NCBI GenBank assembly: GCA_946480465.1
Contig: CAMLJY010000013.1
Location: forward strand, 58,917 to 122,916
Origin: an uncultured Burkholderiales bacterium
GTDB lineage: Bacteria > Pseudomonadota > Gammaproteobacteria > Burkholderiales > Burkholderiaceae
Direction of reading: 5' to 3'
DNA length: 64,000 nucleotides
The notes under the pieces were generated by a model. The model did not search any database. It was given only the letters and a program-made list of their open reading frames with translations, and was not told where the DNA came from. Of this stretch, positions 13,287-58,596 are shown one piece after another. The translations under genes were made by a program, and so were the position numbers. The first letter of the stretch is position 1, and each line of letters opens with the position of its first letter.

Positions 13287-14321
13287 ATGCGATGGACGCG
13301 ATGGAAGCTCTCGGCGGCGCTCTTCGGTGCCGCCTTGCCCCTGGCCCTCGCGGCGGACGTGGCGGGTCGGCCCGCCACGGCAGCGCCAAAGCGGCTGCTG
13401 CTGGTCACCACCACGCTGGGCTACCGGCACAGCTCGATCGAGATGGCCGAGCGGGTGATTGCCCAACTGGGCGCGGCCAACGGATCCTTCACCGTGGAAC
13501 TCGCTGCGGTGACGCCTCCGCCCCAGCCGGGCGCGGACGCCAGCGCCGCGCAGCAGGTCCGTCACGCCGCGGAGCGCGCGGCCTACACCGACCGCGTGCG
13601 CGCCGTCCTCGCCGAGAAGATGAGCGCCGCGGCGCTGCAGCGCTACGACGCGGTGGTCTTTGCCAACACCGTCGGCGAACTGCCGCTGCCCGACCCCGAG
13701 GCCCTCGTGGCCTGGGTGCGCAACGGCGGCGCCTTCGTCGGCGTGCACAGCGCCAGCGACACGCTGCACGGCTTCCGCCCCTACATCGACATGCTGGGCG
13801 GCGAGTTCCACCACCACCGGGAGCAGGTGCGCATCGAGGCCGTCAACCTCGCCCCGGGCCACCGGGCCACGCGCCACCTCGGGCCGCGCTGGAACCTGGG
13901 CGGCTTGCTGGAAGAGATCTACCTGCTGCAGAACCACCGCCGCGAAGCCGTGCAGCCGCTGCTGGCGCTGGACCGGCACCCGCACGGCGGCGAGCCCGGC
14001 TACCACGGCCTGGCCTGGTGCAAGCCCTTCGGCCGTGGCCGCGTCTTTTACACGGCACTGGGCCACAATGAATCGGTCTGGCAGCTGCCTGCCTACCAGC
14101 AGCACCTGGCCGGCGGCATCGCCTGGGCGCTGCGGCTGCAGGACGACGGCGCCGCCGCCCCCGGCGGCGCGTTGATGCGCGGCGCGCGGGGCTCCCCGCG
14201 CATCGCAAACAGTCGACGGTTCAACCCGGTCGGGCATTCACCGTCGACGTCTCCGCCTGGCCGTCAAGCGCCGGCAGGCGCGTACACGGTGCCACCCCCT
14301 CCGGCAGCCGGCCGGCGATGA
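13287..14321 (+). CDS. Exported ThuA-fold protein
   Basis: 344 residues. The start ATG has GGAG ten bases upstream and begins a signal peptide (LFGAALPLALAADVAG). The mature part starts KRLLLVTTTLGYRHSSIE and continues with YDAVVFANTVGELPLPD, VRNGGAFVGVHSASDTL, MLGGEFHHH and GRGRVFYTALGHN. These are the landmarks of the ThuA family, a class I glutamine-amidotransferase-like fold first named from trehalose utilisation and often found with sugar catabolism genes. The chemical role is not established for this branch. The last 45 or so residues are low complexity and overlap the end of the convergent ATPase gene by 101 bases, so the C-terminus may be poorly constrained. Confidence 0.75.
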   Translation: MRWTRWKLSAALFGAALPLALAADVAGRPATAAPKRLLLVTTTLGYRHSSIEMAERVIAQLGAANGSFTVELAAVTPPPQPGADASAAQQVRHAAERAAYTDRVRAVLAEKMSAAALQRYDAVVFANTVGELPLPDPEALVAWVRNGGAFVGVHSASDTLHGFRPYIDMLGGEFHHHREQVRIEAVNLAPGHRATRHLGPRWNLGGLLEEIYLLQNHRREAVQPLLALDRHPHGGEPGYHGLAWCKPFGRGRVFYTALGHNESVWQLPAYQQHLAGGIAWALRLQDDGAAAPGGALMRGARGSPRIANSRRFNPVGHSPSTSPPGRQAPAGAYTVPPPPAAGRR

Positions 14322-15036
14322 TCATGCCGAGCACGGCTTCCTCGTCCACGTCCTTCGTGCGGTAGGTGCCGATGGTGCGGCCGTTCTTCATCACGCACAG
14401 CCGGTCGCTGAGCGCGAAGACGTCGGGCATGTCGTGCGAGATCAGGATGATGCCCACGCCCTGGCCCTGCAGCGTGCGCACCAGGTCGTGCACCATGCGG
14501 GTCTCCTCGGGGCCGAGGGCGGCGCAGGGCTCGTCCATGATCAGCACGCGGGCATTGAAGTACAGCGCCCGCGAGATGGCCACCACCTGGCGCTGCCCAC
14601 CGGACAGCGCGCGCACCGGCACGCGGATGTTCTGGAAGTTCGGGTTCAGCTTCTTGAACACGCCGCGCGCGGCCGACTCCATCGCGTAGTCGTCCAGCGT
14701 GCCCCAGCGGGTGCGGATCTCGCGCCCGAGGAACAGGTTGGCCACCGCGTCCAGGTTGTCGGCCAGCGCCAGGGTCTGGTAGATGGTCTCGATGCCCAGC
14801 GCCTGCGATTGCAGCGGCGTGCGGATCTGCACCGGGCGGCCATCGACGTGGATCTCGCCGCCATCGTGGCCATAGGCGCCGGCCAGGATCTTCATCAGCG
14901 TGGACTTGCCGGCACCGTTGTGGCCCAGCAGCGCCAGCACCTCGCCGGCGTGCACCGCCAGGCTGGCGCCCTGCACCGCCTGCACGCCCCCGAAGGACTT
15001 GCTGATGCCATTCATGCTCACCAGTGCAGTGCTCAT
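14221..15036 (-). CDS. xylG: Xylose ABC transporter ATPase, single-domain form
   Basis: 271 residues with one complete nucleotide-binding domain: Walker A GHNGAGKST, signature LSGGQRQVV, Walker B VLIMDEPCAALG and the switch histidine in ILISHDMPDV. Classical XylG carries two such domains in about 510 residues; the half-size form here would act as a homodimer, like FrcA-type ATPases. The ATG at 15036 overlaps the permease stop by four bases. With the XylH-like permease and XylF-like binding protein it forms a xylose importer, which fits release of xylose from xyloglucan by neighbouring enzymes. Its 3' end overlaps the convergent ThuA-like gene. Confidence 0.87.
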   Translation of the reverse strand: MSTALVSMNGISKSFGGVQAVQGASLAVHAGEVLALLGHNGAGKSTLMKILAGAYGHDGGEIHVDGRPVQIRTPLQSQALGIETIYQTLALADNLDAVANLFLGREIRTRWGTLDDYAMESAARGVFKKLNPNFQNIRVPVRALSGGQRQVVAISRALYFNARVLIMDEPCAALGPEETRMVHDLVRTLQGQGVGIILISHDMPDVFALSDRLCVMKNGRTIGTYRTKDVDEEAVLGMIIAGRLPEGVAPCTRLPALDGQAETSTVNARPG

Positions 15037-16214
15037 GCCATGCGCTCCCCGGTGGCGCGACGGAACAGCACGTCGAAAACCACGGCGGCGATCAGCACCT
15101 GGCCGACGATGACCATGCGCCAGCCGATGTCCACGTCCAGCAGCAGCAACCCGCCTTCGAGGAACTGGATGATCAGCGCGCCCAGCACCGTGCCCAGCAC
15201 CGTGCCGCTGCCGCCGGACAGGGCCACCCCGCCGATGACCGCAGCGGCAATGACGTACAGCTCCTGGTTCGTGCCCAGCGAGTTGGTGCCGGCGTTCAGC
15301 CGCGCCACGGCGACGATGGCCGCCACGGTGACCAGCACCGCCAGCAGCATGAACAGCTGCAGCATCACCCGGCGCACCGGGATGCCCACCAGCAGCGCCG
15401 CTTCAGGGTTGCCGCCGATGGCATAGACGTAGCGCCCGAAACGCGTGCGGTTGACGAGGAACGAGACCGCGCCCACCACCGCGGCCCAGATCAGCACCGG
15501 CACCGGAATGCCCTGCCCTTGCGGCTTGTCGCCGATGCGGTAGGCACCCATGGCCGCTGCGAAGCCGAGCGCCGCGGCGCAGAAGAAGGCCGTGGCGATA
15601 ACGTCGAACCAGAGCGGCCTGATCAGCACGCCATGCGCCTGCTGCCGGCGCCGGCGCTGCACCGTGCGCGCGACGAGCCCCAGGCACAGCAGCGCCGCCA
15701 GCAGCAGGCTGGGCGCGGGCCCGATCGCGCCGTCCAGCCCGCCGCCGAGCATCAGGAACCCCGGGTCGGTGATGGGCTGCGTCTTGCCCGAGGCGACGAG
15801 GAAGGCCGCGCCGCGCAGCGACATCAGCCCGCCCAGCGTGACGACGAACGAGGCCACGCCCAGCCCCGCGACCAGCCAGCCCTGGTACACGCCCACCAGC
15901 AGCGCCACCGCCAGCCCGGCCAGGCTGGCCGGCACCGGATGCCAGCCCTTGGTGTACATCAGGTAGGCGATCAGCACGCCCACCAGGCCCAGCGCCGAAC
16001 CGACCGACAGGTCGATGTGCCGCGCGACGATGACCAGCGCCATCGCCGTGGCCATGATGCCGACCACCGCCGTCTGCTGCGCGATGTTGTAGAGGTTCTC
16101 CGGCGTCAGGAACTGGCCCGTCATCGCATGAAAGGCCAGGCCCAGCGCCCCCAGCACCGCGGCCATGATGGCCAGGCGCAGGTCCAGCGCGCTGATCTGC
16201 AGTCGGGCCAGCAT
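15033..16214 (-). CDS. xylH: Xylose ABC transporter permease
   Basis: 393 residues, about ten hydrophobic helices. XylH-type landmarks are VARHIDLSVGSALGLVGVL near residues 60-80, a longer central loop with RRRRQQAHGV, then RFGRYVYAIGGNPEAALL and ELYVIAAAVIGGVALSGGSG. The length agrees with XylH (393 in E. coli) rather than the shorter RbsC. The ATG at 16214 shares one base with the stop of the binding-protein gene. It forms the channel for the XylF-like protein. Confidence 0.9.
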   Translation of the reverse strand: MLARLQISALDLRLAIMAAVLGALGLAFHAMTGQFLTPENLYNIAQQTAVVGIMATAMALVIVARHIDLSVGSALGLVGVLIAYLMYTKGWHPVPASLAGLAVALLVGVYQGWLVAGLGVASFVVTLGGLMSLRGAAFLVASGKTQPITDPGFLMLGGGLDGAIGPAPSLLLAALLCLGLVARTVQRRRRQQAHGVLIRPLWFDVIATAFFCAAALGFAAAMGAYRIGDKPQGQGIPVPVLIWAAVVGAVSFLVNRTRFGRYVYAIGGNPEAALLVGIPVRRVMLQLFMLLAVLVTVAAIVAVARLNAGTNSLGTNQELYVIAAAVIGGVALSGGSGTVLGTVLGALIIQFLEGGLLLLDVDIGWRMVIVGQVLIAAVVFDVLFRRATGERMA

Positions 16215-17239
16215 CACTTGCAGGCGGGCGGCGCGTCGGCCGCGTTCACGCCCCTGCACAGCTCGGCCTTGCCGATGTGGCCGGCCTTGATGACGACGTC
16301 GAGGTTGGCGCGGGTGATGGGCACGGCCTTCAGGAACATCGCGTCCATGGTCAGCTTCTTCTCGCCGCCGGACCACTTGGTGGCGCCGGCCACCGGCTTG
16401 GCCGCGGCCATCTGCAGCGCGGCCTTCGCGGCCTCGCGGCCGAGGTCGCGCGCGTCCTTCCACACGGAGACCGTCTGCGTGCCCAGCGCCACGCGGTTCA
16501 GCGCCGCATGGTCACCGTCCTGGCCGGAGACCGGCACGCCCTTCAGGCCGCGCGCGGACAGCGCCGCAATCACGCCGCCGGCCGTGCCGTCGTTGCTGGC
16601 GACCACCGCATCCACCTTGCCGCCGTTGCGGGTGAGGATCTGCTCCATGTTGCGCTGCGCCACCTCCGGCTTCCAGCCCTCGGTGTACTCCTCGCCGACG
16701 ATCTTGATGTCGCCCTTCTTGATGGCGGCCTCGAGCACCTCCTGCTGGCCGGCGCGCAGGAAGTCGGCGTTGGGGTCGGTGGGCGAGCCCTTGATCATCA
16801 CGTAGTTGCCCTTCGGTCTCACCGCGAAGACCCCGCGCGCCTGCGTGCGGCCCACCTCCTTGTTGTCGAAGGTGATGTAGAAGACGCCGGGCGCCTCGAT
16901 CAGGCGGTCATACGCGATGACGGGGATGTTGCGTGCCTTGGCCTTGGCGATGGCGGGCTGGATGGCGTCCTTGTCCATCGCCAGCACGATCAGCACCTTC
17001 GCGCCCTTGGCGATCAGGCTGTCGATGTCGCCCAGCTGCTTCTCCGGCGAGCCGCCCGCATCCGCACTGACGTAGCTCGCGCCGGCCCTGGCCAACTCGT
17101 CCTTGATGGCCTTCTCGTCGGTCTTCCAGCGCTCTTCCTGGAAGTTCGACCAGCTCACGCCCACGGTCTGGGCCTGGGCGCCGAAGGCCGACAGGCCGAC
17201 GAGGGTGGCGGCCAGCAACTGCATGGAAGGGGTTTTCAT
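16214..17239 (-). CDS. xylF: Periplasmic D-xylose-binding protein
   Basis: 341 residues. The ATG at 17239 has AGGAGA seven bases before it and opens a signal peptide ([17 protein letters not shown]). The mature sequence [20 protein letters not shown] is close to the start of XylF/ChvE-type proteins, and [24 protein letters not shown] and [20 protein letters not shown] are further XylF landmarks. It captures xylose for the XylH/XylG pair encoded next. It follows the giant cytochrome gene by 89 bases on the same strand and may belong to the same transcript or have its own promoter. Confidence 0.9.
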
Positions 17240-17328: not shown

Positions 17329-20300
17329 TCATCGCGAGGCTTGCCGTGGAGCTTCGCCAGCGGCAACCGGCGCCGCCGCCGCGGCACTGCTGTCGTCCAA
17401 TGAACGCAGGTATTCCACCAGCGCCGCGCGGTCCGCCGCCGACAAGGCCTGCGTACCGCCGTGCCCGGCCTGGAACACGTCGCGCAGCGTCGCGGCCTGG
17501 CCGTTGTGGAAGAAGGACCGGGCGGTCCACAGCCCGTAGAGCGTGGGCGTGTCGATGCCTGCACCAGCCAGCGCCTGCCCGATGCCCTGGCCGGACGAGG
17601 CCTGGATCGTGCCGACGTCGTGCCGCCGGCCGTCGCGCAGCGTGGCACCGGCATGGCAGGTGGCGCATTGCATCGCGCCGAAGAGCTGCTGGCCGCGCAG
17701 CGCCGCCGCGCTGAGGCTGCCGTCCGCCTGGCGAGCCGGACTGCGGCCGTGGCGCGCCAGAGACCCGAGGTAGGCCGCGAGGTCATCCAGGTCACGGCTG
17801 AGCCCGGCCTTGGGCGCGCCCAGCGGCTCCGACGCCGCCGCGAAATCGGCATTGCTCATGAAGCCGGCGCCGCCGAAGGCGCCGCGGATGTCGTGCTCGA
17901 AGTCCTGCACTTCGTCGAAGTTGGCGCTCCAGTGCACGCGGCCATGGCCCAGGCCCTGGCGGCCCAGCAGGCTGGGGGTGCGGCGCAGCCCCTCGCCGCG
18001 CTGCGTGAAGTCCCACACCATGCCGTCGTCGCCGCCATCGGCATGGCAGCTGGCGCAGGACATGTAGTTGTCGCGGCTCATGCGCCGGTCTGCCGCGTTG
18101 TAGAACAGCCGCTTGCCGCGCAGCACCGCCTCGGGCAGCGGCTCGGTGGCCACCGCGGCCACCGTCGCCAGCGGCCGCGCGGCGAAGGACTGCGCCGACA
18201 GCACCGCGGCGATGTCGTACACCCCCACTGTGCGGCCGAGGAAGTTGTTGACGAAGAGGCGCTGGCGCCGCGCGTCGACGTACAGGCCGTGCGGCGCCCG
18301 GTCGGTCTGGATCTCGCCGCGCACGGAGCGGTTGCCGGCATCGACGATCGCGACGCGGTTGCCCTCCATCTGCGCGACGAACAGGAGGTCGCCGTGCGGC
18401 GACCAGGCTGCCGCGCGTGCCGGCGCCCGGTCGTTGAAGTCGAGCTGCTCCGCGAACAGCTCGGCCGCGGCCGGCTGCAGCGCGATCTGCGACACGATGG
18501 AGCGCACGGTGGTGTCGTGTTCCAGCGGCCGGCCGTCGCGGAACAGGCCGCCGACGATGTTGTCCTTCTTCGACGGCAGCGCGGCCCGCCGGCCGTCCGG
18601 CGAGATGACAACCTGATGCAGGTAGTTCGGCACGCCGCGGGCGCGGTTCTCGGCGTCCACGGTGGTCCGGTCGACGCGCAGCGCGACGGTCTGCCGCAGC
18701 GCCAGCGACCGGCCCTGCGCGCCGATCGACACGCGGTGCACCTCGCCGCGGTCCATGCGCGAGCGGAAGCGGGTCACCAGGGCCTGCGTCGAATCGGCGG
18801 CAACTGCGATGCCGCGCACATCCTCCGTTAGCGGCACGGCGGCGCGGGTCGCCCCGCTGGCCGGGTCGAAGCTCATCAAGCTGGAGTGCCCCTCCAGCGT
18901 CACCAGGCCCGCCTGCCCGTCCGGCGTGAACACGATGCCGTGCGGCGCGCTACCGTAGGGCAGCGGCACGCGGGCCGACACGTGGCCATCGGCCGGGCGC
19001 AGCGCGACCAGTTGGTCTTCACCCTGCACGGTGACCCACACCCGCCCGTCCGGCCCCACCGCGACGGTGCGCGGCTCGGCACCGACCCGCGTCTCCCAGG
19101 CCTTCGCGAGCGTGGCGGCGTCGATGGCGGTGACCGTGCCGCTGTCCGGGTTGACGCTGTAGACCTGCGCCGCGTCCCCCGTGATGTTGCTGCTGTGCGT
19201 GGGCGCCAGCGCGGTGCGTGGGTGGATCACCGTGCGGTGGAACGAATGGGTGGCCTCCGCTCCGTCGGCCATGCGCACCGTCAGCACCACCGTGTAGTGG
19301 CCGGGCGCCTTGAAGCGGTGCGTGGCCCGCGGCGTGCTCGAGAAGCCGGTGCGCGGCGTGCCGTCGCCGAAGTTCCAGCGGTACCGGGCGCCGGGGCGTG
19401 CCAGCTCGGCGAGGTCGAAGCGCGCCAGCGCGTTCACGTGAAGGATCTGCGCACTGGCCGGTTCGGCGATGCGAGGCGCGGCCCGGACGCCGGCCGCTGA
19501 CTTTGCAGGTTGGGGAGCGGCGTGCGGGCCGGTGCCGAACTGCGCGTGGAACGCGCTGGCGATGGCATTGCCCGCGTAGTCGCGCAGGCCACCGGCGGGC
19601 ACGATCACTTCGTAGGTCGTGTCGGGCGCCAGCGGCGCGTCCGGCGCGAAGTTCACGAGGCCCAGCTGCACGCTGTAGGTGCCGGCCAGGGGCGCGCCAC
19701 CGCGTGGACGCACGATGAAGCTGGCCGGGCCGATGCTCTCGGGCAGGATGTTGTCGCTGAGCGCGATGCCGATGCGCGAGCTCGTCGCCTGGTGGCGCGC
19801 GCCATCCCGCGGCGACACCTGCCGCACCTGGGGCGGCGTGGTGTCCGGCCGGCGGTCGTGCACGATGAAGCCGCTGCCGTTGCCGTGGTCGTTGCCGATG
19901 AAGGCGACGTTGCCCATCGGGGTCACCTGGCCGTGGTCCGAATGGCGCGCCTGCTCGGAGCCTTCGGGAAACAGGCCGCCCTGGCCGACCTGCCGGTGCT
20001 GCAGCGGGTCGCTCACGTCCACCTTGTGCAGCTTTTCCTGCGCGCCCTGGAACACGAACTGGTCCTGCGTGGCGCAGTACAGCTGCTCGTCCGCCTGCAG
20101 CCGCTTGTCCTGCGCGACGAAGCGCGCCGGGTCGCCGAGGTCGTAGCTGAACATGCGCGCGCCGCGGCCGCGCACGGAGCCGTAGAGCGTTCGGCCATCG
20201 AAGCAAGTGGCGTAGTAGAACGGCAGCGCGCCCACCGTGTCGAGCAGCCGCGGGTTCAGCGGGTCGGAGATGTCCAGGCTGGCCAGCCCTGAGGCCGCTT

Positions 20301-21063
20301 CCATCGAGCTGAGCACCAGGTGGTTGCCCAGCGTGAAGATGGGGCCGACGCGGAAGCCGCCCAGTTCGCCGGTGGGCACCGGGTTCGGCCGGCCCTCGCC
20401 ACGGTCGGCGAGCATGGGTTTCGCGGGATCGCGCGCGTCGACGATGTACATGCCGTCTTCGGCCGAGGCCACGTACACATAGGGGGCCTGCCACCACAGC
20501 TGCCAGGTCACGTTGGAATAGTCGCCACCGTGCACGGTGGGCAGGGCCAGCTTGCTCACCTGGCGGATGTCGTTGACGTCGGTGAAGTCCCAGAACTCGA
20601 TGCCGCGCGTGCTGGGCACGACGATGAGCTGGCGCCCGCCGATCGTCGCCTGGCCGATGGCGTGCGGCTCGCGGAACTCGGCGGTGCGGCCGGTCGGCTC
20701 GTAGATCTTCTTCACCAGCCGCGGGCTGCGCGGGTTGGAGACGTCGTAGACCAGGAAGCCGCCAGGCGGATGCCCGCTGTCGGGCGCGAACATCACGACG
20801 AAATAGCCGTTCAGCATCAGGCCCACGTTGGTGCCGAAGTCCTTGCGGCCGGGATGGCGGAACGGCATGTCGCCATCGGCCGCGCCGGGCGCGCTCTCGG
20901 TCCGGATCATCGCGATCGGCTGGAACAGCTCGGCCTCGGTGTAGGCCAGGTTGCCCAGCCCGGGGCCAGGGCGAGGCCCTGCCGGACGGTCCGCTGAGCC
21001 GGCCGAGACATGGGCCAGCAGGACCAGCACGCTCGACAAGGCCAGCGCAGCCCGACGGGCCAT
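17329..21063 (-). CDS. Giant exported beta-propeller protein with PKD domain and di-haem cytochrome
   Basis: 1244 residues from the ATG at 21063, which opens a signal peptide ([20 protein letters not shown]); upstream codons are open but lack family sequence. The parts in order are: a propeller built of LVIVD-like repeats (about 40-410; [24 protein letters not shown]), an SbsA-like Ig module (about 430-530; [13 protein letters not shown]), a PKD module (about 570-640; [14 protein letters not shown]), a second YVTN-type propeller (about 650-970) and a C-terminal cytochrome with two CXXCH haem sites (CASCH near 1000, CATCH near 1133) like MauG/cytochrome c peroxidases. It is probably periplasmic or surface-exposed and redox active. 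Its place between glycoside hydrolases and the xylose importer is unexplained; no lytic polysaccharide monooxygenase was seen. Confidence 0.75.
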
Positions 21064-25905: not shown

Positions 25906-25912
25906 GATTGAC

Positions 25913-39055: not shown

Positions 39056-39148
39056 GCCGGACTTCGCCTGGACCCGCCTGGTCCGCGGTCCGTTCCGACC
39101 ACCCGCCTTGCCTTCCCCGCAGGGCCCAGCCCTTCGAGGAGCCCTGAC

Positions 39149-49693: not shown

Positions 49694-51487
49694 ATGACCA
49701 ACCGACCCCTCCACACCACCCTGCGCCGCGCGACGGCGCTGGCCCTGGGCCTGACGCTGCAGGCCTGCGGCCAGGCGCCGGTCTCGCCGCCGACAGCGGC
49801 CACGCCGGCCCCCGTGGCCGCGCCGCTCGCCGCCCCGGCCATCCAGGTCAACCAGGTCGGCTTCCTGCCCGGATCGGCCAAATGGGCGGTGGTGCCGGAC
49901 GGCCCGGCCACCGAATTCGCCGTGCTCGACGCGGCGTCCGGCCGCGAGGTGTTCCGCGGCCCGCTGGGCCGGGCCGCGCGCTGGCTGCCGGCGCAGGAAT
50001 CGCTGCGCCTGGCCGACTTTTCCGCGTTCCGCCAGCCGGGCGAGTACCGGCTGCAGGTGGACGGCCTGCCCGAGTCGTCGCGCTTCGTCATCGACGCGCG
50101 CGCCTACGAGGCGCTGAATGCCGCCGCGCTGAAGGCCTTCTACTTCAACCGCGCCAGCATCGAGCTGAAGCCCGAGCACGCCGGACCCTGGGCACGCGCC
50201 GCCGGCCACCCCGACACACGCGTGCGGGTGCATGCCTCGGCCGCCGGCCCGGGCCGGCCCGAGGGCACGGTGATCAGCGCGCCGAAGGGCTGGTACGACG
50301 CCGGCGACTACAACAAGTACGTCGTCAACTCCGGCATCACGACCTACACGCTGCTGGCCGCGTGGGAGCACTTCCCCGCTCACTTCGAGCGTCAGCGACT
50401 CCACATCCCCGAAAGCGGCAACGCCCTGCCCGACCTGCTGGACGAGGTGCTGTGGAACCTGGAGTGGATGCTGGCCATGCAGGACCCGGCCGACGGCGGC
50501 GTGTACCACAAGCTCACCGACAAGGGCTTCGACGCCGTGGTGATGCCGCACGTTCCGAAGAACGAGCGCTACGTGGTGATGAAGACCACCGCCGCCACGC
50601 TGGACTTCGCCGCAGTGATGGCGCAGGCCAGCCGCGTCTTCGCCGCCTTCGACGCGCAGCGGCCGGGCCTGTCGGCGCGGCTGCTGGCCGCCGCACGGGC
50701 CGCCTGGGGCTGGGCGCAGGCCCACCCGGCCGTGGCCTACAGGCAGCCGCCGGACATCCACACCGGCGGCTACGACAACGCCCGGCTGGACGACGAATTC
50801 GCCTGGGCCGCCGCCGAGCTGTACGTCACCACCCGCGACGACCGCTTCCTGGCCGCGATGAAGGCCAGGGCGCAGCCGGCCGACGTGCCCGGCTGGGGCG
50901 ACGTCGGCAGCCTGGCCTGGGTCACCCTGGCCCACCACCGCGACCGCCTGACGCCCGCGGCCGACCGGGGCGGGATCGAACGCCAGATCGCCGCGCAGGC
51001 CGCCAAGCTGGCGGCGCTATGGCAGGCCTCGCCCTACCGGGTGGCGATGCAGAACGACGACTTCTACTGGGGCAGCAACGCGGTGGCGCTGAACCAGGCG
51101 CTGATGCTGATCCAGGGCCACCGCCTGGGCGGCGACCGCGGCCAGCTGGACGCCGCGCAGGCCGCGCTCGACTTCGTGCTGGGCCGCCACCCCACCGGCC
51201 ACTCGATGGTCACCGGCTTCGGCGAACGCTCGCCGCGCGAGCCGCACCACCGCCCCTCGGGCGCGGACGGCGTGACGGACCCCGTGCCCGGCTTCATCGT
51301 CGGCGGGCCGCGCAAGGAGACCTCGGACGACTGCAAGCCCCTGGCCTATCCGTCGAAAGCCGCGGCCAAGGCCTGGCTCGACCGCTTCTGCAGCTACACC
51401 ACGAATGAAGTGGCCATCAACTGGAATGCCCCGCTGGTCTACGTCTCGGCGGCCCTGCAATCCCTGACACCCGCGCCCAAGCCATGA
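49694..51487 (+). CDS. GH9 endoglucanase lipoprotein with CelD_N domain
   Basis: 597 residues. Lipoprotein signal LALGLTLQACGQ. An N-terminal Ig-like CelD_N domain (IQVNQVGFLPGSAKWAVV) precedes the GH9 barrel. The base region GWYDAGDYNKYVVNSG and the acid region TTNEVAINWNAPLVY are complete, as is HPTGHSMVTGFGERSP with the conserved substrate-binding His and Arg. It is expected to be membrane-anchored and to cut beta-1,4-glucan backbones; with GH74 in the same operon, xyloglucan is likely. Its stop overlaps the MFS start (ATGA). Confidence 0.9.
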   Translation: MTNRPLHTTLRRATALALGLTLQACGQAPVSPPTAATPAPVAAPLAAPAIQVNQVGFLPGSAKWAVVPDGPATEFAVLDAASGREVFRGPLGRAARWLPAQESLRLADFSAFRQPGEYRLQVDGLPESSRFVIDARAYEALNAAALKAFYFNRASIELKPEHAGPWARAAGHPDTRVRVHASAAGPGRPEGTVISAPKGWYDAGDYNKYVVNSGITTYTLLAAWEHFPAHFERQRLHIPESGNALPDLLDEVLWNLEWMLAMQDPADGGVYHKLTDKGFDAVVMPHVPKNERYVVMKTTAATLDFAAVMAQASRVFAAFDAQRPGLSARLLAAARAAWGWAQAHPAVAYRQPPDIHTGGYDNARLDDEFAWAAAELYVTTRDDRFLAAMKARAQPADVPGWGDVGSLAWVTLAHHRDRLTPAADRGGIERQIAAQAAKLAALWQASPYRVAMQNDDFYWGSNAVALNQALMLIQGHRLGGDRGQLDAAQAALDFVLGRHPTGHSMVTGFGERSPREPHHRPSGADGVTDPVPGFIVGGPRKETSDDCKPLAYPSKAAAKAWLDRFCSYTTNEVAINWNAPLVYVSAALQSLTPAPKP

Positions 51488-52812
51488 GCAGCCTCGCCGC
51501 CACCGAATCCGCAGTCCCCGGCGCCGCCCGGGCGCGCCATCCGCTGGCCTGGGTGCCCACGCTGTACCTGGCCATGGGCCTGCCCAACGTGATGGTGGGC
51601 GTGGTGGCCGCCATCATCTACAAGAACCTCGGCGTGCCCAACGAGGACATCGCGCTCTACACCTCGCAGATGTACCTGCCCTGGGTGCTGAAGCCGCTGT
51701 GGGCGCCGCTGCTGGAGGCGCACCGCAGCAAGCGCTGGTGGGTCATCAGCATGCAGTTCCTGATGGCGGCCTCGCTGGGGCTGGTGGCCTTCTGCCTGCC
51801 GCTGGAAGGCTTCTTCCGGCTCTCGCTCGCGTTCTTCTGGATCACCGGCTTCGCCAGCGCCACGCAGGACACCTGCGCCGACGGCGTGTTCATGAGCACG
51901 GTCTCGCTGACGGACCAGGCACGCTACGCCGGCCTGCAGGGCATGTGCTGGAACCTGGGCGCGGTCATCGGCAGCGGGCTGCTGGTGTCGCTCACCGGCT
52001 GGCTGCACGAGCACCACGGCCTGCCCTGGGTGCAGTGCTGGATGGTCGTGGTGGGCCTGGCCGCGGCGGCAATGGCGCTGTTCGGCCTGTGGCACCTGCG
52101 GGTGCTGCCCAGCGGCGGGCCGCCGGCCGTGGCCGGGCGGGGCCATGCCGCCGGCTTCGCCGCGATGCGCCAGGCCTGGGCCAGTTTCTTCGCCAAGCCG
52201 CAGATCTGGATGATGCTGGCCGTCATCTTCTTCTACCGCTTCGGCGAAGGCTTCATCGAGAAGTTCGGCCCGCTGTTCCTGCTCGATCCGCGCTCGTCGG
52301 GCGGGCTGGGGCTGGACAACGCGGCGCTGGGCCACATCAACGGCACGGTGGGCACCATCGCCTTCATCGCCGGCGCCTTCCTCGGCGGCTTCCTGGTCGC
52401 GCGGCGCACGCTGCCGCGCTCCTTCTTCGTGCTGGCGCTGGTGCTGAACGTGCCGCACCTGACCTACTTCTACCTGAGCACCGCGCTGCCGCAGGATCCG
52501 CTGTGGATCGGCGCCATCGTCGCGGCGGAGAAGTTCGGCTTCGGCATGGGCTCGGTGGGCCACATGCTCTACATGATGCAGCAGGTGGCCCCCGGCCCCT
52601 TCCGGATGGCGCACTACGCGATGGCCACCGGCGTGATGGCCCTGACCAAGTGGGCCACCGGCACCGTGAGCGGCTGGGTGTGGGGTGCCGTCGGGCACGA
52701 CTACACCACGTTCTTCGGCCTGGTGCTGCTGTTCTCGGTGCCGCCGGTGATCCTGGCCTGGCTGGCGCCCTTCCCCCACCCCGCCAACCCGGCGACGGAG
52801 ACCCGCTCGTGA
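51484..52812 (+). CDS. MFS permease, AmpG-like, probable oligosaccharide importer
   Basis: 442 residues with about 12 hydrophobic helices. YLAMGLPNVMVGVVAAIIYK and LYTSQMYLPWVLKPLWAPLL at the N-terminus recall the AmpG-like family, whose E. coli member carries muropeptides; GFASATQDTCADG holds a charged motif of the family. In CAZyme loci such permeases carry di- and oligosaccharides through the inner membrane. It is translationally coupled to GH9 (upstream) and GH39 (downstream). Xyloglucan oligosaccharide transport would bring substrate to the cytoplasmic GH31. That link is inferred. Confidence 0.85.
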   Translation: MSSLAATESAVPGAARARHPLAWVPTLYLAMGLPNVMVGVVAAIIYKNLGVPNEDIALYTSQMYLPWVLKPLWAPLLEAHRSKRWWVISMQFLMAASLGLVAFCLPLEGFFRLSLAFFWITGFASATQDTCADGVFMSTVSLTDQARYAGLQGMCWNLGAVIGSGLLVSLTGWLHEHHGLPWVQCWMVVVGLAAAAMALFGLWHLRVLPSGGPPAVAGRGHAAGFAAMRQAWASFFAKPQIWMMLAVIFFYRFGEGFIEKFGPLFLLDPRSSGGLGLDNAALGHINGTVGTIAFIAGAFLGGFLVARRTLPRSFFVLALVLNVPHLTYFYLSTALPQDPLWIGAIVAAEKFGFGMGSVGHMLYMMQQVAPGPFRMAHYAMATGVMALTKWATGTVSGWVWGAVGHDYTTFFGLVLLFSVPPVILAWLAPFPHPANPATETRS

Positions 52813-54404
52813 CGACCCTGTCCTTCCCGATCAACAACCCCCTGCTGCGCCCGCTGGCCGCGGCGGTGCTCGCGCTCGGCCTCGGTGCCGCGGCAGTGGC
52901 CGGACCGCCCGTCCGCGAAGTGACCCTCGACGTGGCCGCGGCCACGCGGCCGATGGACCGCTTCTTCGACCTGTCCATCGGTGCCGACTACATCGGCACC
53001 ACCGGCCGCGCCGAGAACCTGGCGCAGCTGAAGACCGCGGTCGACGAGCTCGGCTTCCGCTACGTGCGCTTCCACGACGTCTTCCACGACGTCCATGGCA
53101 CGGTGAAGAAGGACGGCGACAAGCTGGTCTTCGACTTCAGCGGCATCGACAAGCTCTACGACGGGCTGCTGGCACGCGGCATCAAGCCCTTCGTCGAACT
53201 GGGCTTCACGCCCGGCGCGATGAAGACCTCGAACCTGACGATCTTCCACTGGAAGGGCAACACCTCGCACCCGCAGCCGGGGCCCTGGATGGAACTGGTC
53301 GACGCCTTCGTGCGCCACCTGATCCAGCGCTACGGCATCGAGGAGGTGCGCCAGTGGCCCTTCGAGGTGTGGAACGAGCCCAACCTGGAAGGCTTCTGGG
53401 AGCGGGCTGACCAGGTGGCCTACTTCGAGCTGTACGCCAACACCGCCCGCACGATCAAGAAGATCGACCCCACGCTCAAGGTCGGCGGCCCGTCCACCGC
53501 CGGCGCGGCCTGGGTGCCGGAGCTGCTGGCCTACGCCAAGGCGCACGGCGTGCCGGTGGACTTCGTCACCACCCACACCTATGGCGTGACCGAGGGCTAC
53601 CTGGACGAGTACGGCAAGTCCGACCGCATCCTCGCGACCGACCCGAATTCCATCATCGGCGACGTCCGCCGCAACCGCCAGGAGATCGAGGCCTCCGCCT
53701 TCCCCGGCATCCCGCTGTACATCACCGAGTGGAGCACCAGCTACAACCCGCGCGACAAGGTGCACGACAGCTACATCAGCGCGCCGTGGATCCTGACCAA
53801 GCTGCGCGGCACGCGCGGCTACGCGCAGGCGATGAGCTACTGGACCTACAGCGACCTGTTCGAGGAGCCGGGCCCGCCCGACCGCGCCTTCCACGGTGGC
53901 TTCGGCCTGATGACGCGCGACGGCGTGCGCAAGCCCTCGTGGTTCGCCTACAAGTACCTCAACGCGCTGCGCGGCAACGAGGTGCCGAGCACCGATGACA
54001 AGGTGCTGGCCGCGGTGGACGGCCGCAAGGCCGCGGTGCTGGTGTGGGACTGGCAGCACCCGGACCAGAAAAGCGCCAGCAACGGCGTGTTCTTCGGCAA
54101 GCCGGTGCCCAACGGGCCGGCCGCGGCGGTGACGCTGAAGCTGCGCAACGTGGCCGCCGGCAGCTACCGCGTGCAGGTGCGCCGCACCGGCCACAAGACC
54201 AACGACGCCTACACCGCCTACCTCGAGATGGGCGCGCCCAAGGACCTGAGCACCGAGCAGCTCGCCCGGCTGCAGGCGCTGACCGCGGACAAGCCCGAGG
54301 TCAACCGCGTCGTCAAGATCGGCCCCGACGGCCAGCTGCAGTGGAAGCTGCCGATGCGCAGCAACGACATCGCGCTGGTGACGCTGGAGCCGGTCCAGCG
54401 CTGA
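52809..54404 (+). CDS. Exported GH39 beta-xylosidase-like enzyme
   Basis: 531 residues from the GTG at 52809, overlapping the MFS stop by four bases, with a signal peptide (AVLALGLGAAAVAG). GH39 landmarks: RYVRFHDVFHD, acid/base Glu in FEVWNEPNLEGFW and nucleophile in LYITEWSTSYNPRD, followed by the small beta-domain with AVLVWDWQHP. The length agrees with GH39 beta-xylosidases (about 500). It could release xylose from oligosaccharides in the periplasm. Some GH39 members have other specificities (for example alpha-iduronidase), but the bacterial xylosidase branch fits best here. Confidence 0.87.
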   Translation: MTTLSFPINNPLLRPLAAAVLALGLGAAAVAGPPVREVTLDVAAATRPMDRFFDLSIGADYIGTTGRAENLAQLKTAVDELGFRYVRFHDVFHDVHGTVKKDGDKLVFDFSGIDKLYDGLLARGIKPFVELGFTPGAMKTSNLTIFHWKGNTSHPQPGPWMELVDAFVRHLIQRYGIEEVRQWPFEVWNEPNLEGFWERADQVAYFELYANTARTIKKIDPTLKVGGPSTAGAAWVPELLAYAKAHGVPVDFVTTHTYGVTEGYLDEYGKSDRILATDPNSIIGDVRRNRQEIEASAFPGIPLYITEWSTSYNPRDKVHDSYISAPWILTKLRGTRGYAQAMSYWTYSDLFEEPGPPDRAFHGGFGLMTRDGVRKPSWFAYKYLNALRGNEVPSTDDKVLAAVDGRKAAVLVWDWQHPDQKSASNGVFFGKPVPNGPAAAVTLKLRNVAAGSYRVQVRRTGHKTNDAYTAYLEMGAPKDLSTEQLARLQALTADKPEVNRVVKIGPDGQLQWKLPMRSNDIALVTLEPVQR

Positions 54405-54422: not shown

Positions 54423-55232
54423 ATGACGAGCACCGCGCCGCCTGCGCCGCCGGCCGAGGCGCTGCCGCCAACGCACGAAGCGAGCGTGTGGCAGTACACG
54501 CGCCTGGCGCACGAAGGCGTGCTGCGCAACGTCGGTGCGGCGGCGCTGCTGCCGGTGCAGCCGCCGCCGGGCCGCGCCAGCGGCCGCGCGGTGCTGGTGG
54601 TGCCGGGCGGCGGCTTCCTCTTCGTCGCGGTCGAGAACGAAGGCCTGCCCGTCGCCCGGCGCCTGGCCGACGCCGGCCATGCGGCCTTCGTGCTGGTGTA
54701 CCGCACGCGGCCCACCATCGCCGACGACGACGCCTTCGAACGCGGCTTGCCGCGGGCCTGGGAACGGCTGGCCGCGCAGGTCCGCATGGACGCTGACATC
54801 GAGGCCTATGCGCCGGCCGCCGACGACACGCGCACGGCGATGCGCTGGCTGCGCGCGCACGCGGCGGACGAAGGCTTCGACCCGCGGCGCATCGGCCTGC
54901 TGGGCTTCTCCGCCGGCGCGCGCTGCGCCCGCGCGCTGGTCGAACAGGCCGAGCCGGCGGAGATGCCCGACAGCCTGGCGCTGGTCTACGGCGGCTTCGC
55001 CCGCACCGCGCCGCGCCACCCGGTGCCGCCCTTGTTCCTGGCCCAGGCCGCCGACGATCCGCTGTTCGACAGCCGGCGCCTGGACATCCTGGACGACTGG
55101 CGCCGCGCCGGCCAGCGCGCCGAGCTGCACCTGTACGAACGCGGCGGCCACGGCTTCGGCCTGCGGCCGCAGGGCAGCACCAGCGACCAGTGGTTCGACG
55201 CCTACCGCGCCTGGCTGGACCGGCAGGCCTGA
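54423..55232 (+). CDS. Alpha/beta-hydrolase, probable acetyl esterase
   Basis: 269 residues from the ATG at 54423. The oxyanion motif PGGGFLFV, nucleophile Ser in GLLGFSAGARCA, acid Asp in QAADDPLFDS and His in ERGGHGFGL form a complete triad of the Axe/BD-FAE esterase type. No signal peptide is evident, so it would act in the cytoplasm on imported acetylated oligosaccharides. It follows GH39 by 18 bases. Natural xyloglucans carry O-acetyl groups on galactose, which gives a use for it. Substrate is inferred from context. Confidence 0.8.
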   Translation: MTSTAPPAPPAEALPPTHEASVWQYTRLAHEGVLRNVGAAALLPVQPPPGRASGRAVLVVPGGGFLFVAVENEGLPVARRLADAGHAAFVLVYRTRPTIADDDAFERGLPRAWERLAAQVRMDADIEAYAPAADDTRTAMRWLRAHAADEGFDPRRIGLLGFSAGARCARALVEQAEPAEMPDSLALVYGGFARTAPRHPVPPLFLAQAADDPLFDSRRLDILDDWRRAGQRAELHLYERGGHGFGLRPQGSTSDQWFDAYRAWLDRQA

Positions 55233-55374
55233 TGCCCGCGCGTGCCGCGTGCGCTGCTCGTCGGCTCGCGCCCTGTCCCGTCGCCGCCGGGCCTGGCTCG
55301 TCGCATGGGGCTGGCGACCCGTCCCTGCGGTTTGCAGACTGCTCGCCATCCCAACCCCCCGAAGGATGAACCGC

Positions 55375-56034
55375 ATGGACTACCGCGTACTCCTGGCCGC
55401 CCCGCTCGCGGCACTGGCCGTGTCGGCCAGCGGCGCCGATGCGCTGCGCCAGCCCGAGGGCTGGCTCGCCGGCGCCACCTTCGCCTGGCCCGGCGGCAGC
55501 ACCCACGAAGCCGGCGTGGCACCCGAGACCGAGACCAGCAGCCAGCGCGCGCTGACGGTGCGGGCCAAGGGCACGCGCAGCGGCACCGACATCGGCAGCA
55601 TCAGCCAGTACGCCTTCGGCTACGCGGGCCAGCGGGTGCGCTTCACGGCGCAAGTCAAGGCCCGTGGCGTCGATGGCTGGGCGGGCCTGGTCGTCGGCGC
55701 GGGCTTCGCCCCCTTGTGGACACTGGCGGACGCGCCGCAGCACGGCGACATGCCGCCGCGCGGTGCCGCCGCCTGCCCCGACTGGTGCGAGGCCAGCGTG
55801 GTGGCCGACCTGCCGGCCGACGGCCAGGGCGTGGCCCAAGTCGGGCTCGCGCTGGTCGGCAGCGGCCAGGCGTGGGCGCGCGGCTTCAGGCTGGAGGTCG
55901 TGGGGCCCGAGGTGCCCGTCACCACGCAGCGTTTTGCCGAAGAGGCCGCCGCGGCCAGGAAGGACGCGATGCAGAAGTTGCTTCAGCAACGCGCGGCCCA
56001 GCCCACGGCCCCGCACAACCTGGCGCTGCAGTGA
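55375..56034 (+). CDS. Small exported protein of unknown function, first of two paralogues
   Basis: 219 residues from the ATG at 55375 (AAGGA upstream; the ATG at 55366 is an alternative). It starts MDYRVLLAAPLAALAVSASG, a signal peptide nearly identical to that of the next protein. The body is beta-rich and has GQRVRFTAQVKARGVDGWAG and LALVGSGQAWARGFRLEVV. This resembles a jelly-roll module that some bacterial regulators carry at their C-terminus, here alone and exported. Together with the next gene it is a tandem duplication directly upstream of a sensor kinase gene. Function unknown; a role in ligand presentation to the kinase is conceivable. Confidence 0.65.
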   Translation: MDYRVLLAAPLAALAVSASGADALRQPEGWLAGATFAWPGGSTHEAGVAPETETSSQRALTVRAKGTRSGTDIGSISQYAFGYAGQRVRFTAQVKARGVDGWAGLVVGAGFAPLWTLADAPQHGDMPPRGAAACPDWCEASVVADLPADGQGVAQVGLALVGSGQAWARGFRLEVVGPEVPVTTQRFAEEAAAARKDAMQKLLQQRAAQPTAPHNLALQ

Positions 56035-56080: not shown

Positions 56081-56767
56081 ATGGACTACCGCATTCTGTT
56101 GATCGCCCCCCTGGCCGCGCTGGTGCTCGGTGCCGCCGCCGGCACCGCCCCGCCCCGCATGCCGCTGGGCTGGATGCCGGCGGATCACGTGAGCCCTGCC
56201 ACGCCATCACCCAAAGTACCCGTGGGCTACGAGATCGGCCTGGATCCGCAGGCCTCCGGGCCGCCCAGCCTGACGGTGCGCGCCATCCTGCCCCAGGGAA
56301 CGCAGCGCCAGGGCCTGGGCGCTGCCTACCAGGTCGTGCACGGGCAGGGCGGCCGGCGTGTGCGCTTCAGCGGCCAGGTGCGCGCCGAAGGCCTGGCCAC
56401 CTGGGCGGGGCTCTACGTCGGCAGCGGCGACTTCACGCTGCTGAGTGACCTGACTGCCGGTCGGCCCGGCATCGAACACCGGCTGCCGCGCGGCGTGGCC
56501 GTGCGGCCGGGCAGCGGCTGGCAGGAGGTGAGCGTGGTCTTCGACGTGCCAGCCGGCACCGAGCCCATCAACCTGGGGCTGGCCCTGGTGGGCGAAGGCC
56601 AGGCCTGGATGCGCGAACTGCGCTTCGACGTCGTCGGGCCGCAGGTGCCCACCACCACCAGCACGCTGGCCTACGACTGGGTGAGTGTCCGCACGGCCAA
56701 CGAAAGGGGCCGCGCGACGATGGCGGCCCTGCCGCCGCAGCCCCTGCGCAACCCGGCGCTGGACTGA
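56081..56767 (+). CDS. Small exported protein of unknown function, second of two paralogues
   Basis: 228 residues; GGAGG lies nine bases before the ATG. It begins MDYRILLIAPLAALVLGAA and shares the core blocks GRRVRFSGQVRAEGLATWAG and LALVGEGQAWMRELRFDVVG with the protein encoded just before. The two are clearly paralogous but differ in length of the loops and in the C-terminus. It ends nine bases before the histidine-kinase gene, so the three are cotranscribed. No catalytic motif is visible. Confidence 0.68.
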   Translation: MDYRILLIAPLAALVLGAAAGTAPPRMPLGWMPADHVSPATPSPKVPVGYEIGLDPQASGPPSLTVRAILPQGTQRQGLGAAYQVVHGQGGRRVRFSGQVRAEGLATWAGLYVGSGDFTLLSDLTAGRPGIEHRLPRGVAVRPGSGWQEVSVVFDVPAGTEPINLGLALVGEGQAWMRELRFDVVGPQVPTTTSTLAYDWVSVRTANERGRATMAALPPQPLRNPALD

Positions 56768-56776: not shown

Positions 56777-57826
56777 ATGCCCGCCCAGCGCCCGCCCACC
56801 CCCGCCCCGCCCGCAGGCGCGGCCTGGCACCAGGCCCTTCTGCCGGCAGCGCTGTTCTGGGCCGCCTGGGCCGTGCTGCACTGGCAGTGGCCCCAGGCTC
56901 GGTGGCTGGGCCTGGCGGCGCAGCTGTGGCTGGCCTACAGCGCCGCCTGGTGCACGCTGCGCTGGCGCCATTGGCCCGTGGCGCTGCCGCTGGCTGCCGC
57001 CCTCGGATCCGCGGTGGGCCTGCTGGCCCTGCCGGAATTCAGCCTGGCCCGGTGGTTCACCCCCTCGGTGCCGTGGCGCCCATGGCTGCCGGGCTTCGCT
57101 TTCGCGCTGCTGATGCACCTGCCGCTGCGCTGGTGGCGCTGGCGCGAGGAACGTGCGCTGGCGCTGCGCCTGGGCCGCGCCGAGAAGACCGCCGAGGTGG
57201 CCGAGCTGCAGCGCCAGGTCAGCCTGGCCGAGCTGAAGGCTTTGCAGGCGCAGGTCGAGCCGCATTTCCTGTTCAACGCGCTGGCCAGCCTGCAGCAGCT
57301 GATCCGCAGCCAGCCGGAGACGGCCGAGCGCTTCCTCGGTGAACTGCATGATTACCTGCGCCTGGCCCTGCCCTCGCTGCGGCAACCCATGTCCAGCGCC
57401 GGCCAGGAACTGGCGCTGGCGCGCGCCTACCTGACGGTGATGGCGACGCGGCTGGGCGATCGGCTGCGCTTCGCGGTGCAGGCCGGCGCCGGTTGCGAGG
57501 CCCATGCACTGCCGCCGCTGATGCTGCTGACGCTCGTGGAAAACGCGGTGCGCCACGGCATCGAGCCACTGCCGGGCGGCGGACGCATCGACGTCGAGGC
57601 GCGGCGCGACGGCGAGCGCTTCGTGCTCGAGGTCCGCGACGACGGCGCCGGGCTGCACGCCGGCGCCGCGGCCAGCGCCCAGCAACCCGGCCAGGGCCTG
57701 GGCCTGGCCAACCTGCGCGACCGCCTGGCGGGCCTCTACGGCGGTGCCGCTCACTTGCGCGTGCAGCAGCGCGCCGAAGGCGGCGTGCGCGCCCGCATCG
57801 AGCTGCCCTGGACCCCTCCCGCCTGA
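56777..57826 (+). CDS. LytS/AlgZ-type membrane sensor histidine kinase
   Basis: 349 residues. About three to four hydrophobic segments occupy residues 20-125. A coiled region (RAEKTAEVAELQRQVSLAEL) leads into the His_kinase domain, with phospho-acceptor His163 in VEPHFLFNALASLQQLI. The ATPase domain shows LLTLVENAVRHGIEP (N box), VRDDGAGL and GQGLGLANLRDRL (G boxes). It pairs with the LytTR regulator encoded eight bases later. Since no periplasmic sensor domain is obvious, the signal may be sensed by the membrane helices or through partner proteins such as the two exported paralogues upstream. Confidence 0.88.
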   Translation: MPAQRPPTPAPPAGAAWHQALLPAALFWAAWAVLHWQWPQARWLGLAAQLWLAYSAAWCTLRWRHWPVALPLAAALGSAVGLLALPEFSLARWFTPSVPWRPWLPGFAFALLMHLPLRWWRWREERALALRLGRAEKTAEVAELQRQVSLAELKALQAQVEPHFLFNALASLQQLIRSQPETAERFLGELHDYLRLALPSLRQPMSSAGQELALARAYLTVMATRLGDRLRFAVQAGAGCEAHALPPLMLLTLVENAVRHGIEPLPGGGRIDVEARRDGERFVLEVRDDGAGLHAGAAASAQQPGQGLGLANLRDRLAGLYGGAAHLRVQQRAEGGVRARIELPWTPPA

Positions 57827-57834
57827 GCCCCGCG

Positions 57835-58596
57835 ATGAACGCTTCGCCCCGCGCCCTCCTGATCGAAGACGAAACCCTGCCACGCCAGCGCCTGCGCGAG
57901 GGCCTGGCCGCGCTGTGGCCGCAGCTGCAGCTGCTGGCCGAGGCCGAGGACGGCGCGCGCGGCCTCGCGCTGGTGCTGCAGCACCGCCCGGACATCGTCT
58001 TCGTCGACATCCGGCTGCCCGGGCTCGACGGCCTGCAGCTGGCGCAGCGCATCAAGGGCCTGGCGCACGTGGTGTTCGTCACCGCCTACGACGCCCACGC
58101 GCTGGCCGCCTTCGAGCAAGGCGCCGTGGACTACCTGCTCAAACCCTTGTCCACCGAGCGCCTGCGCGAGACGGTCCAGCGCCTGCAGCAGCGCCTGCAG
58201 TGGCCGCCCGCCGAGCTGGCGCGCTGGCTGCAGCAGTGGCAGCCACCGCGCCTGGCGCCGGCGGTGGCGCCGGCACCGCTGCGCTGGCTGCAGGCCTCGC
58301 AGGGCGAGCGCCTGCACCTGGTGATGGTGGCCGACGTGAGCCACTTCCGCAGCGACAGCAAGTACACCTGCGCCGTCACGGCCGAGGGCGAATTCCTGCT
58401 GCGCCTGTCGCTGCGCGAGCTGCTGGCGCAGCTCGACCCCGAACAGTTCTGGCAAGTCCACCGCGCGATCGTCGTCAACCTGGCGCAGGTGGCGCGCGTG
58501 GAGCGGCGCCTGGGCGCCATGGAGGTGCTGCTGAAGGACGGCGCGACCCGCCTGCCCGTGAGCCAGACCTTCCAGCCGCGCTTCAAGCCGATGTGA
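57835..58596 (+). CDS. LytTR-family response regulator
   Basis: 253 residues. Receiver domain (1-120) with acidic pair Glu11-Asp12, phosphorylation Asp58 in IVFVDIRLPG, switch Thr in VVFVTAYDAHA and Lys in DYLLKPLST. The C-terminal LytTR DNA-binding domain (about 155-250) shows VSHFRSDSKYTCAV, LRLSLRELLAQL, FWQVHRAIVVNL and LPVSQTFQPRF. The ATG at 57835 follows the kinase stop by eight bases. It is the only DNA-binding protein recognised in the window and therefore a candidate regulator of the xyloglucan operons. The shared promoter motif does not obviously match the LytTR direct-repeat consensus, so that link is open. Confidence 0.9.
   Translation: MNASPRALLIEDETLPRQRLREGLAALWPQLQLLAEAEDGARGLALVLQHRPDIVFVDIRLPGLDGLQLAQRIKGLAHVVFVTAYDAHALAAFEQGAVDYLLKPLSTERLRETVQRLQQRLQWPPAELARWLQQWQPPRLAPAVAPAPLRWLQASQGERLHLVMVADVSHFRSDSKYTCAVTAEGEFLLRLSLRELLAQLDPEQFWQVHRAIVVNLAQVARVERRLGAMEVLLKDGATRLPVSQTFQPRFKPM

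Follow-up and report, generated by a model that had tools for sequence, protein, structure and literature searches.

A likely xyloglucan utilisation island with a lipoprotein-containing capture module in a Pseudaquabacterium-like betaproteobacterium

A stretch of 64,000 nucleotides from an uncultured Burkholderiales bacterium (GenBank assembly GCA_946480465.1, contig CAMLJY010000013.1, forward-strand positions 58,917 to 122,916; hereafter the window, whose own numbering is used throughout) very probably carries an island for the utilisation of xyloglucan, which comprises two divergent gene sets and modules for monosaccharides. By its nearest relatives, the host would be a Pseudaquabacterium-like betaproteobacterium. 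An earlier note had described a complete xyloglucan utilisation locus at 14221-58596. Searches of Pfam, NCBIfam and PDB sequences recovered every enzyme family that it named there. Enzyme assignments, together with the synteny shared with Pseudaquabacterium terrae, give the xyloglucan reading good support; neither completeness as regards the fucosyl bond nor novelty in absolute terms among betaproteobacteria is supported. The island is wider than the reported bounds and spans around sixty kilobases, from about 3028 to at least 63884, with a fucose-type module (3028-12937) and a galactose-type module (58606-63884) on its flanks. These two modules and the halogenase-like, cytochrome, twin carbohydrate-binding module (CBM)-like and two-component genes were missing from the earlier note and were found here. 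Genes were called by reading frame and codon-position G+C, starts were picked by eye from frames and upstream sequence, and products were scanned against Pfam and, in part, also against NCBIfam and PDB sequences. Lipoboxes and signal-like starts were read from the N-termini by eye rather than with a signal predictor. The observations behind the xyloglucan assignment are gene families, signal-like starts read in this way, synteny and predicted folds.

The set on the plus strand consists of the following genes:

39149..41500, plus strand: GH74, xyloglucanase type, signal-like start (best PDB match 6p2m)
41575..43851, plus strand: GH31 alpha-xylosidase of the YicI type, no signal peptide seen (NCBIfam PRK10658, YicI structures, TDFGE motif)
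43854..46850, plus strand: GH2 beta-galactosidase, GalA type, signal-peptide-like start (NCBIfam GalA 1028.8 bits, cut-off 900)
46847..48898, plus strand: second GH2, signal-peptide-like start (Pfam, N-terminus)
48895..49674, plus strand: CE4 polysaccharide deacetylase lipoprotein (Pfam Polysacc_deac_1, lipobox, TFDD motif)
49694..51487, plus strand: GH9, probable lipoprotein, nearest BoGH9A (PDB 6dht; lipobox-like LQAC)
51484..52812, plus strand: major facilitator superfamily (MFS) permease, AmpG-like (AmpG family 132 bits, under the cut-off of 350)
52809..54404, plus strand: GH39, signal-peptide-like start (Pfam, N-terminus)
54423..55232, plus strand: alpha/beta-hydrolase esterase, no signal peptide seen (Pfam Abhydrolase_3, BD-FAE; GFSAG motif)

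The assignment of the GH74 protein is taken from its PDB matches, since Pfam returned BNR-type matches only. Its 17 PDB matches, all of which we take to belong to GH74, are xyloglucanases, oligoxyloglucan cellobiohydrolases or loosely named cellulase/BNR entries; 6p2m was matched with 431.7 bits in one continuous stretch and the oligoxyloglucan reducing-end enzyme 1sqj with 287.9 bits in two stretches. The GH31 protein scored 1163.8 bits against PRK10658 (cut-off 606) and 933-937 bits against YicI structures, and BoGH9A (6dht) is the best match of the plus-strand GH9 with 462 bits, the runner-up reaching 281.

Further enzymes are encoded on the minus strand:

21366..23426, minus strand: GH42 beta-galactosidase family, signal-peptide-like start (Pfam, N-terminus)
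23590..25905, minus strand: GH29 fucosidase family with an F5/8-type C domain, signal-like start (Pfam, PDB matches)
25913..28102, minus strand: GH9, diverged, signal-like start (Pfam; BoGH9A merely the fourth PDB match)
28329..30980, minus strand: GH3, nearest beta-xylosidases, signal-peptide-like start (Pfam, PDB matches)
30977..32203, minus strand: GH5 lipoprotein, lipobox IAGC, apparently nearest GH5_4 enzymes (PDB matches)

The top PDB matches of the GH5 protein, on which its likely placing in GH5_4 rests, are 3zmr (294 bits), presumably the GH5 of the Bacteroides ovatus locus, and Cellvibrio cel5D (5oyc, 243 bits). Endo-xyloglucanase families in the cluster are thus GH74, by its PDB matches, and probably this GH5, and the scan of window proteins brought up no family of endo-xylanases, pectinases or endo-galactanases. 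The nearest matches are xyloglucan-active enzymes for GH74, the YicI-type GH31, the GH5 and the GH9 nearest BoGH9A; the other GH9 is diverged. Putative beta-galactosidases for the side chain are present by family, namely the GalA-type GH2, which scores above its cut-off, and GH42. The claim that the enzymes cover every bond type of fucogalacto-xyloglucan, however, is not borne out for the alpha-1,2-fucosyl bond, because the sole fucosidase seen in the window is a GH29 whose best PDB matches are 8ayr, 4zrx and the alpha-1,3/4-fucosidase 3mo4/3ues (363, 341 and 307 bits). According to the part of a review that treats linkage, GH29B enzymes usually cut alpha-1,3/4 and not alpha-1,2 bonds, although the A/B split is no sure predictor (PMC10154630).

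A search with GH74 revealed two named relatives, Pseudaquabacterium (Aquabacterium) terrae S2 (79% identity) and Ideonella alba (55%). GH74 occurs in three of 60 relatives, P. terrae included. A comparison with related Burkholderiales, as the earlier note had proposed, bore out a conserved gene order: a 100-kb stretch of the genome G005 holds 29 of the 38 queried window proteins at 70-95% identity in nearly colinear order, and a 100-kb stretch of P. terrae holds 21 of the 38 at 77-96% in much the same order, which argues that the clustering is more than chance. In P. terrae, 16 of the 38 proteins are absent or met by paralogues only, and the GH5 counterpart (58%) lies outside the locus. Nine proteins lack a counterpart in the G005 stretch, namely the enzymes GH5, GH3, GH29 and GH42 and, of the proteins described below, the two twins, the histidine kinase, the response regulator and the GD_AH dehydratase. 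Since GH3, GH29 and GH42 have no counterpart by similarity in either relative's stretch, and GH5 has none in that of G005 and only the distant one in P. terrae, these four genes look like additions of the window's own. The core thus consists, on one side, of the lipoprotein, the receptor, the halogenase-like gene, a GH9 and XylFHG and, on the other, of GH74, GH31, GH2, GH2, CE4, GH9, MFS permease and esterase. The receptor is 88-89% identical in the relatives and the diverged GH9 84% and 91% in the two. GH39 is found in both relatives (76-77%) but elsewhere, between the xylose importer and the other ABC importer.

The divergent sets are separated by an intergenic region, at whose minus-strand side the capture genes begin:

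38553..39148, no strand: intergenic region; in an alignment with both relatives, conserved blocks are short only
37137..38552, minus strand: lipoprotein, presumed surface-exposed, lipobox LAAC, with two Ig-like domains and a CBM11-like C-terminal domain (sequence and AlphaFold2 model)
33917..37042, minus strand: TonB-dependent receptor, TonB-Xanth-Caul class (NCBIfam TIGR01782 516.5 bits, cut-off 310)
32309..33790, minus strand: tryptophan-halogenase-like flavoprotein, W.W.IP motif (Pfam Trp_halogenase 532 bits)

The part of the island that looks new is this capture module, in which a lipoprotein with Ig-like and CBM11-like predicted domains adjoins the receptor and the halogenase-like gene, and the earlier suggestion of a different capture system is supported by the predicted fold. 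Sequence searches with the lipoprotein gave no match in Pfam, up to E 1, and nothing better than E 0.58 in PDB. In its AlphaFold2 model (mean predicted local distance difference test score, pLDDT, 87.7), the C-terminal domain adopts a beta-sandwich CBM fold, whose best match among CBM folds is CBM11 in complex with a mixed-linkage tetrasaccharide; at 7-8% identity, this likeness is one of predicted fold. The W.W.IP motif is, as we take it, that of flavin-dependent tryptophan halogenases, and NCBIfam halogenase models matched only far under their cut-offs; halogenation is putative. The halogenase-like gene directly adjoins the receptor gene and its product is 88-89% identical in both relatives; P. 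terrae, G005, I. alba (a copy cut by the end of the locus) and the family genome G075 have further copies (47-50%) in the vicinity of other receptors. To our knowledge, the role of such receptor-linked genes is unexplained, and no paper on it was found in a search of the open-licence literature.

Among 250 family genomes, with at most six candidates scored per genome, the lipoprotein is present in eight: those designated G001, G005 and G075 match near full length, G137 matches over residues 15-389 and the other four match in the Ig-like part only. It was further found in two of 60 relatives, P. terrae included. Downstream of the plus-strand enzymes follow four genes:

55366..56034, plus strand: twin 1, secreted or membrane-tethered, a paralogue of twin 2 (sequence; the tandem pair also occurs in G075)
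56081..56767, plus strand: twin 2, secreted or membrane-tethered, CBM-like (predicted fold)
56777..57826, plus strand: LytS-type histidine kinase (Pfam His_kinase, HATPase_c; 76% in G075)
57835..58596, plus strand: LytTR response regulator (Pfam Response_reg, LytTR; 86% in G075)

The model of twin 2 (mean pLDDT 90.0) shows a CBM-like predicted fold; this twin alone was modelled, and 49 family members, among them the window protein itself, were found at an E value of no more than 0.001. By eye, the kinase just downstream of the twins has no obvious periplasmic sensor domain. In G075 (stretch L025, 541-19667), the same module of lipoprotein, receptor and halogenase-like gene stands together with the twins and LytS/LytTR beside GH59 and three GH43 genes, which suggests a galactan or arabinogalactan locus. 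It is tempting to speculate that the three genes make up a glycan-capture cassette of proteobacteria, as an independent counterpart to SusC/SusD and the surface glycan-binding protein (SGBP), which would be controlled by the twin CBM-like sensors and LytS/LytTR and re-used on different plant glycans, xyloglucan in the window and the GH59/GH43 substrate in G075; we regard this as quite possible, though still short of probable. Re-use on a second glycan would make the role of the receptor-linked halogenase-like genes testable by deletion.

Modules for the side-chain sugars surround the enzymes:

3028..4572, minus strand: GD_AH family dehydratase, galactarate/altronate type (Pfam GD_AH_C/second/SAF; NCBIfam galactarate dehydratase 387 bits, under the cut-off of 731)
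4912..6042, minus strand: tagaturonate-reductase-like dehydrogenase (Pfam Mannitol_dh; NCBIfam PRK03643 under cut-off; 80% in G005)
6095..7105, minus strand: zinc alcohol dehydrogenase (Pfam ADH_N/ADH_zinc_N; 88% in G005)
7159..8067, minus strand: L-fuconolactonase-like amidohydrolase (Pfam Amidohydro_2; NCBIfam L-fucono-1,5-lactonase 221 bits, under the cut-off of 400; 80% in P. terrae)
8085..9113, minus strand: aldo/keto reductase (Pfam Aldo_ket_red; 84% in P. terrae)
9175..12937, minus strand: sugar ABC importer with binding protein, permease and ATPase (Pfam Peripla_BP_4, BPD_transp_2, ABC_tran; 87-93% in P. terrae)
14221..17239, minus strand: D-xylose ABC importer xylG-xylH-xylF (XylF NCBIfam 404.9 against a cut-off of 389.55; 91-96% in P. 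terrae)
58606..60146, minus strand: 2-dehydro-3-deoxy-6-phosphogalactonate aldolase and 2-keto-3-deoxygalactonokinase (NCBIfam NF006600 241.4 bits, cut-off 207; Pfam DGOK; 72% and 70% in G005)
60143..63884, minus strand: YtfR-like sugar ABC importer with two permeases and an ATPase (YtfR 651 bits, under the cut-off of 850; 75-86% in G005)

The genes at 3028-12937 fit the oxidative L-fucose route, in which the GD_AH protein would probably be the sugar-acid dehydratase and the aldo/keto reductase probably the L-fucose dehydrogenase; this assignment is a probable one because the fuconolactonase scores under its curated cut-off. No counterpart of the dehydratase was found in the two relatives' stretches. 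By its position, the importer at 9175-12937 probably takes L-fucose; the frame of its ATPase runs to 12937, with the true start inside the frame. The aldolase, the kinase and the importer at 58606-63884 fit a galactose route, and the importer at 60143-63884 is presumed to take galactose. At the start of its permease at 60143-61297 (61180-61300), short in-frame repeats of the MSAPM/MGASM kind and many in-frame ATG codons were noticed. With XylFHG and the fucose-type and galactose-type modules, every side-chain sugar of fucogalacto-xyloglucan has a candidate module in the island.

The xyloglucan utilisation locus (XyGUL) of B. ovatus consists of GH5, GH9, GH2, GH3, GH31, SusC/SusD and an SGBP; its BoGH9A and BoGH3B are named among the PDB matches obtained here. 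The window resembles it in the GH5 and GH9 nearest its enzymes, in GH2, GH3 and GH31 and, in principle, in a surface glycan-binding lipoprotein, but differs in the TonB-Xanth-Caul class of its receptor, the YicI type of its GH31 and a lipoprotein lacking any PDB sequence match. A SusC/SusD pair is absent: no SusD was found in the window, the receptor belongs to TIGR01782 and the adjoining lipoprotein is Ig-like/CBM-like in its predicted fold. The Xanthomonas XyGUL contains two TonB-dependent transporters (TBDTs), GH74, GH31, GH35, GH95, the founding esterase of CE20, xylose genes in the neighbourhood and an MFS transporter (PMC8245568). Window and Xanthomonas share GH74, GH31, a TonB-dependent receptor, an esterase, an MFS permease and a xylose module, whereas the window has GH2/GH42 in place of GH35 and GH29 in place of GH95, and additionally GH5, two GH9, the CBM11-like lipoprotein, the halogenase-like gene and the fucose- and galactose-type modules. 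No curated-level match to GH35, GH95 or a GDSL esterase was obtained among the window proteins scanned, and the Xanthomonas-type set is thus not the one found here. For Cellvibrio japonicus, the relevant passages report a cluster of Xyl31A, Bgl35A, Afc95A and a TBDT with the endo-enzymes elsewhere (PMC5816542, PMC11892949) and describe GH5D as a lipoprotein (PMC5816542). TBDT uptake, GH31 and a GH5 lipoprotein of the CjGH5D kind are common to both; in the window, however, the endo-enzymes lie inside the locus and neither GH35 nor GH95 was found.

In its passage on these systems, a 2025 paper presents Cellvibrio and Xanthomonas as devoid of the surface glycan-binding part of Bacteroidota xyloglucan loci (PMC11892949), and a betaproteobacterial locus with a CBM-like lipoprotein beside the receptor would break this divide. 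The supposed novelty for betaproteobacteria is weakened, however. One sentence of the same paper, which gives no gene list, mentions XyGUL-like clusters of individual Massilia and Pelomonas strains; like the window, these are betaproteobacterial and have an endo-xyloglucanase (GH5_4 or GH74) in an organised cluster (PMC11892949). Furthermore, I. alba has a Xanthomonas-like locus of 22 kb with ROK, an FGGY kinase, a xylose-isomerase-like protein, a receptor, GH74, GH95, a GDSL/Exop_C esterase, GH1, LacI, MFS_2, GH43 and a protein matching GH42, GH35 and DUF5597 models. It comes close to the published Xanthomonas set (PMC8245568), apart from the window-type GH31, of which no relative was found in the I. 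alba stretch. Among the open-licence papers listed in the literature search, none describes the layout of the window, as judged by title and abstract opening.

In P. terrae, a cluster directly beside the window-type locus contains ROK, a xylose-isomerase-like protein, a receptor, a GDSL/Exop_C esterase, GH1, LacI, MFS_2, GH95 and GH43 and continues with GH5, GH2 and a GH29; it is only partly of the Xanthomonas type because there is no second GH74 (one match genome-wide), which leaves it without a GH74 of its own. The second cluster of G005, within roughly 15 kb of the window-type locus, holds a receptor, a GDSL/Exop_C esterase, MFS_2, GH43, GH95, a second GH74 (42%), GH97, a GH31 with PA14 and DUF5110, and GH2. 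Xyloglucan-type clusters of betaproteobacteria thus come in at least two kinds, whose pairing in relatives is unusual, as are the CBM-like capture lipoprotein with the halogenase-like gene and the re-use of this module. GH95 was found in all three genomes searched (P. terrae, G005, I. alba) and GH29 in one of two; the relatives carry their GH95 fucosidase in the kind of cluster that is not the window's.

From these data, we infer locations, the order of steps, transporter substrates, the ligand of the lipoprotein and control by LytS/LytTR as follows. Outside the cell, the lipoprotein-anchored GH5 and GH9 and the exported GH74 would cut xyloglucan, while the lipoprotein at 37137-38552 would keep the chains close to the TonB-dependent receptor, which would bring in the oligosaccharides. 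CE4, GH2, GH42, GH3, GH39 and GH29 could then trim these outside the inner membrane. Since GH31 has no visible signal peptide, it should meet its substrate in the cytoplasm, so that an oligosaccharide importer is needed; the AmpG-like MFS permease is the candidate, and would move partly trimmed oligosaccharides to the cytoplasm, where GH31 would release xylose. Xylose, galactose and fucose would be taken up and burnt through the dedicated importers and pathways, and the LytS/LytTR pair may control the island.

Some of the enzymes are also what one would expect of a broad hemicellulose or cell-wall island, for which xyloglucan is one of several targets; the substrates of GH3, GH39, GH42 and GH29 would then be xylan, galactan or fucosylated pectin and glycoproteins bound to xyloglucan. 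GH3 is nearest beta-xylosidases, GH29 nearest alpha-1,3/4-fucosidases, GH39 and GH42 are part of the locus, and GH3, GH29, GH42 and GH5 look like additions. However, the endo-enzymes of the locus are xyloglucan types, and families of endo-enzymes for those other polymers were unseen in the proteins scanned; we consider a broad island rather unlikely. It is very improbable that the locus serves mixed-linkage or another beta-glucan instead of xyloglucan, with the CBM11-like domain binding beta-1,3-1,4-glucan as CBM11 does. The tetrasaccharide in the best CBM match and the two GH9 would agree with such a substrate, but a likeness of fold at so low an identity does not reveal a ligand, and GH74 and a YicI-type alpha-xylosidase presumably have no role on an unbranched beta-glucan.

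The relatives raise a different possibility, namely that the window represents one half of their double island and kept the Pseudaquabacterium-type part, the added GH5, GH3, GH29 and GH42 offsetting the absent neighbour cluster. P. terrae and G005 both have such a neighbour with GH95, a GDSL/Exop_C esterase, GH43, MFS_2 and a receptor, and the scan of the window proteins gave neither GH95 nor a GDSL esterase nor GH43. However, only a small part of the genome is in view, as the longest contig among those listed for proteins identical to the lipoprotein and twin 2 has 79148 bases, and we lean against this explanation while taking it seriously. The xyloglucan utilisation island remains the preferred reading.

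One further gene of the minus-strand side encodes a protein with haem-binding motifs:

17329..21063, minus strand: secreted propeller, Big_5, PKD and MauG/cytochrome c protein with two CxxCH motifs (di-haem; Pfam, motifs)

This protein of 1244 residues has a signal-like start and is 86% identical and syntenic in G005; it was not found in the P. terrae stretch. Its family is large, and many Burkholderiales relatives bear further lectin-type domains. The G+C content of the window ranges from about 0.66 to 0.75 in 4-kb steps. At the left window end (36-2397, plus strand), a prepilin-type N-methylation protein (799-2397) and a neighbouring frame lie in a region of lower G+C and are apparently unrelated to the island.

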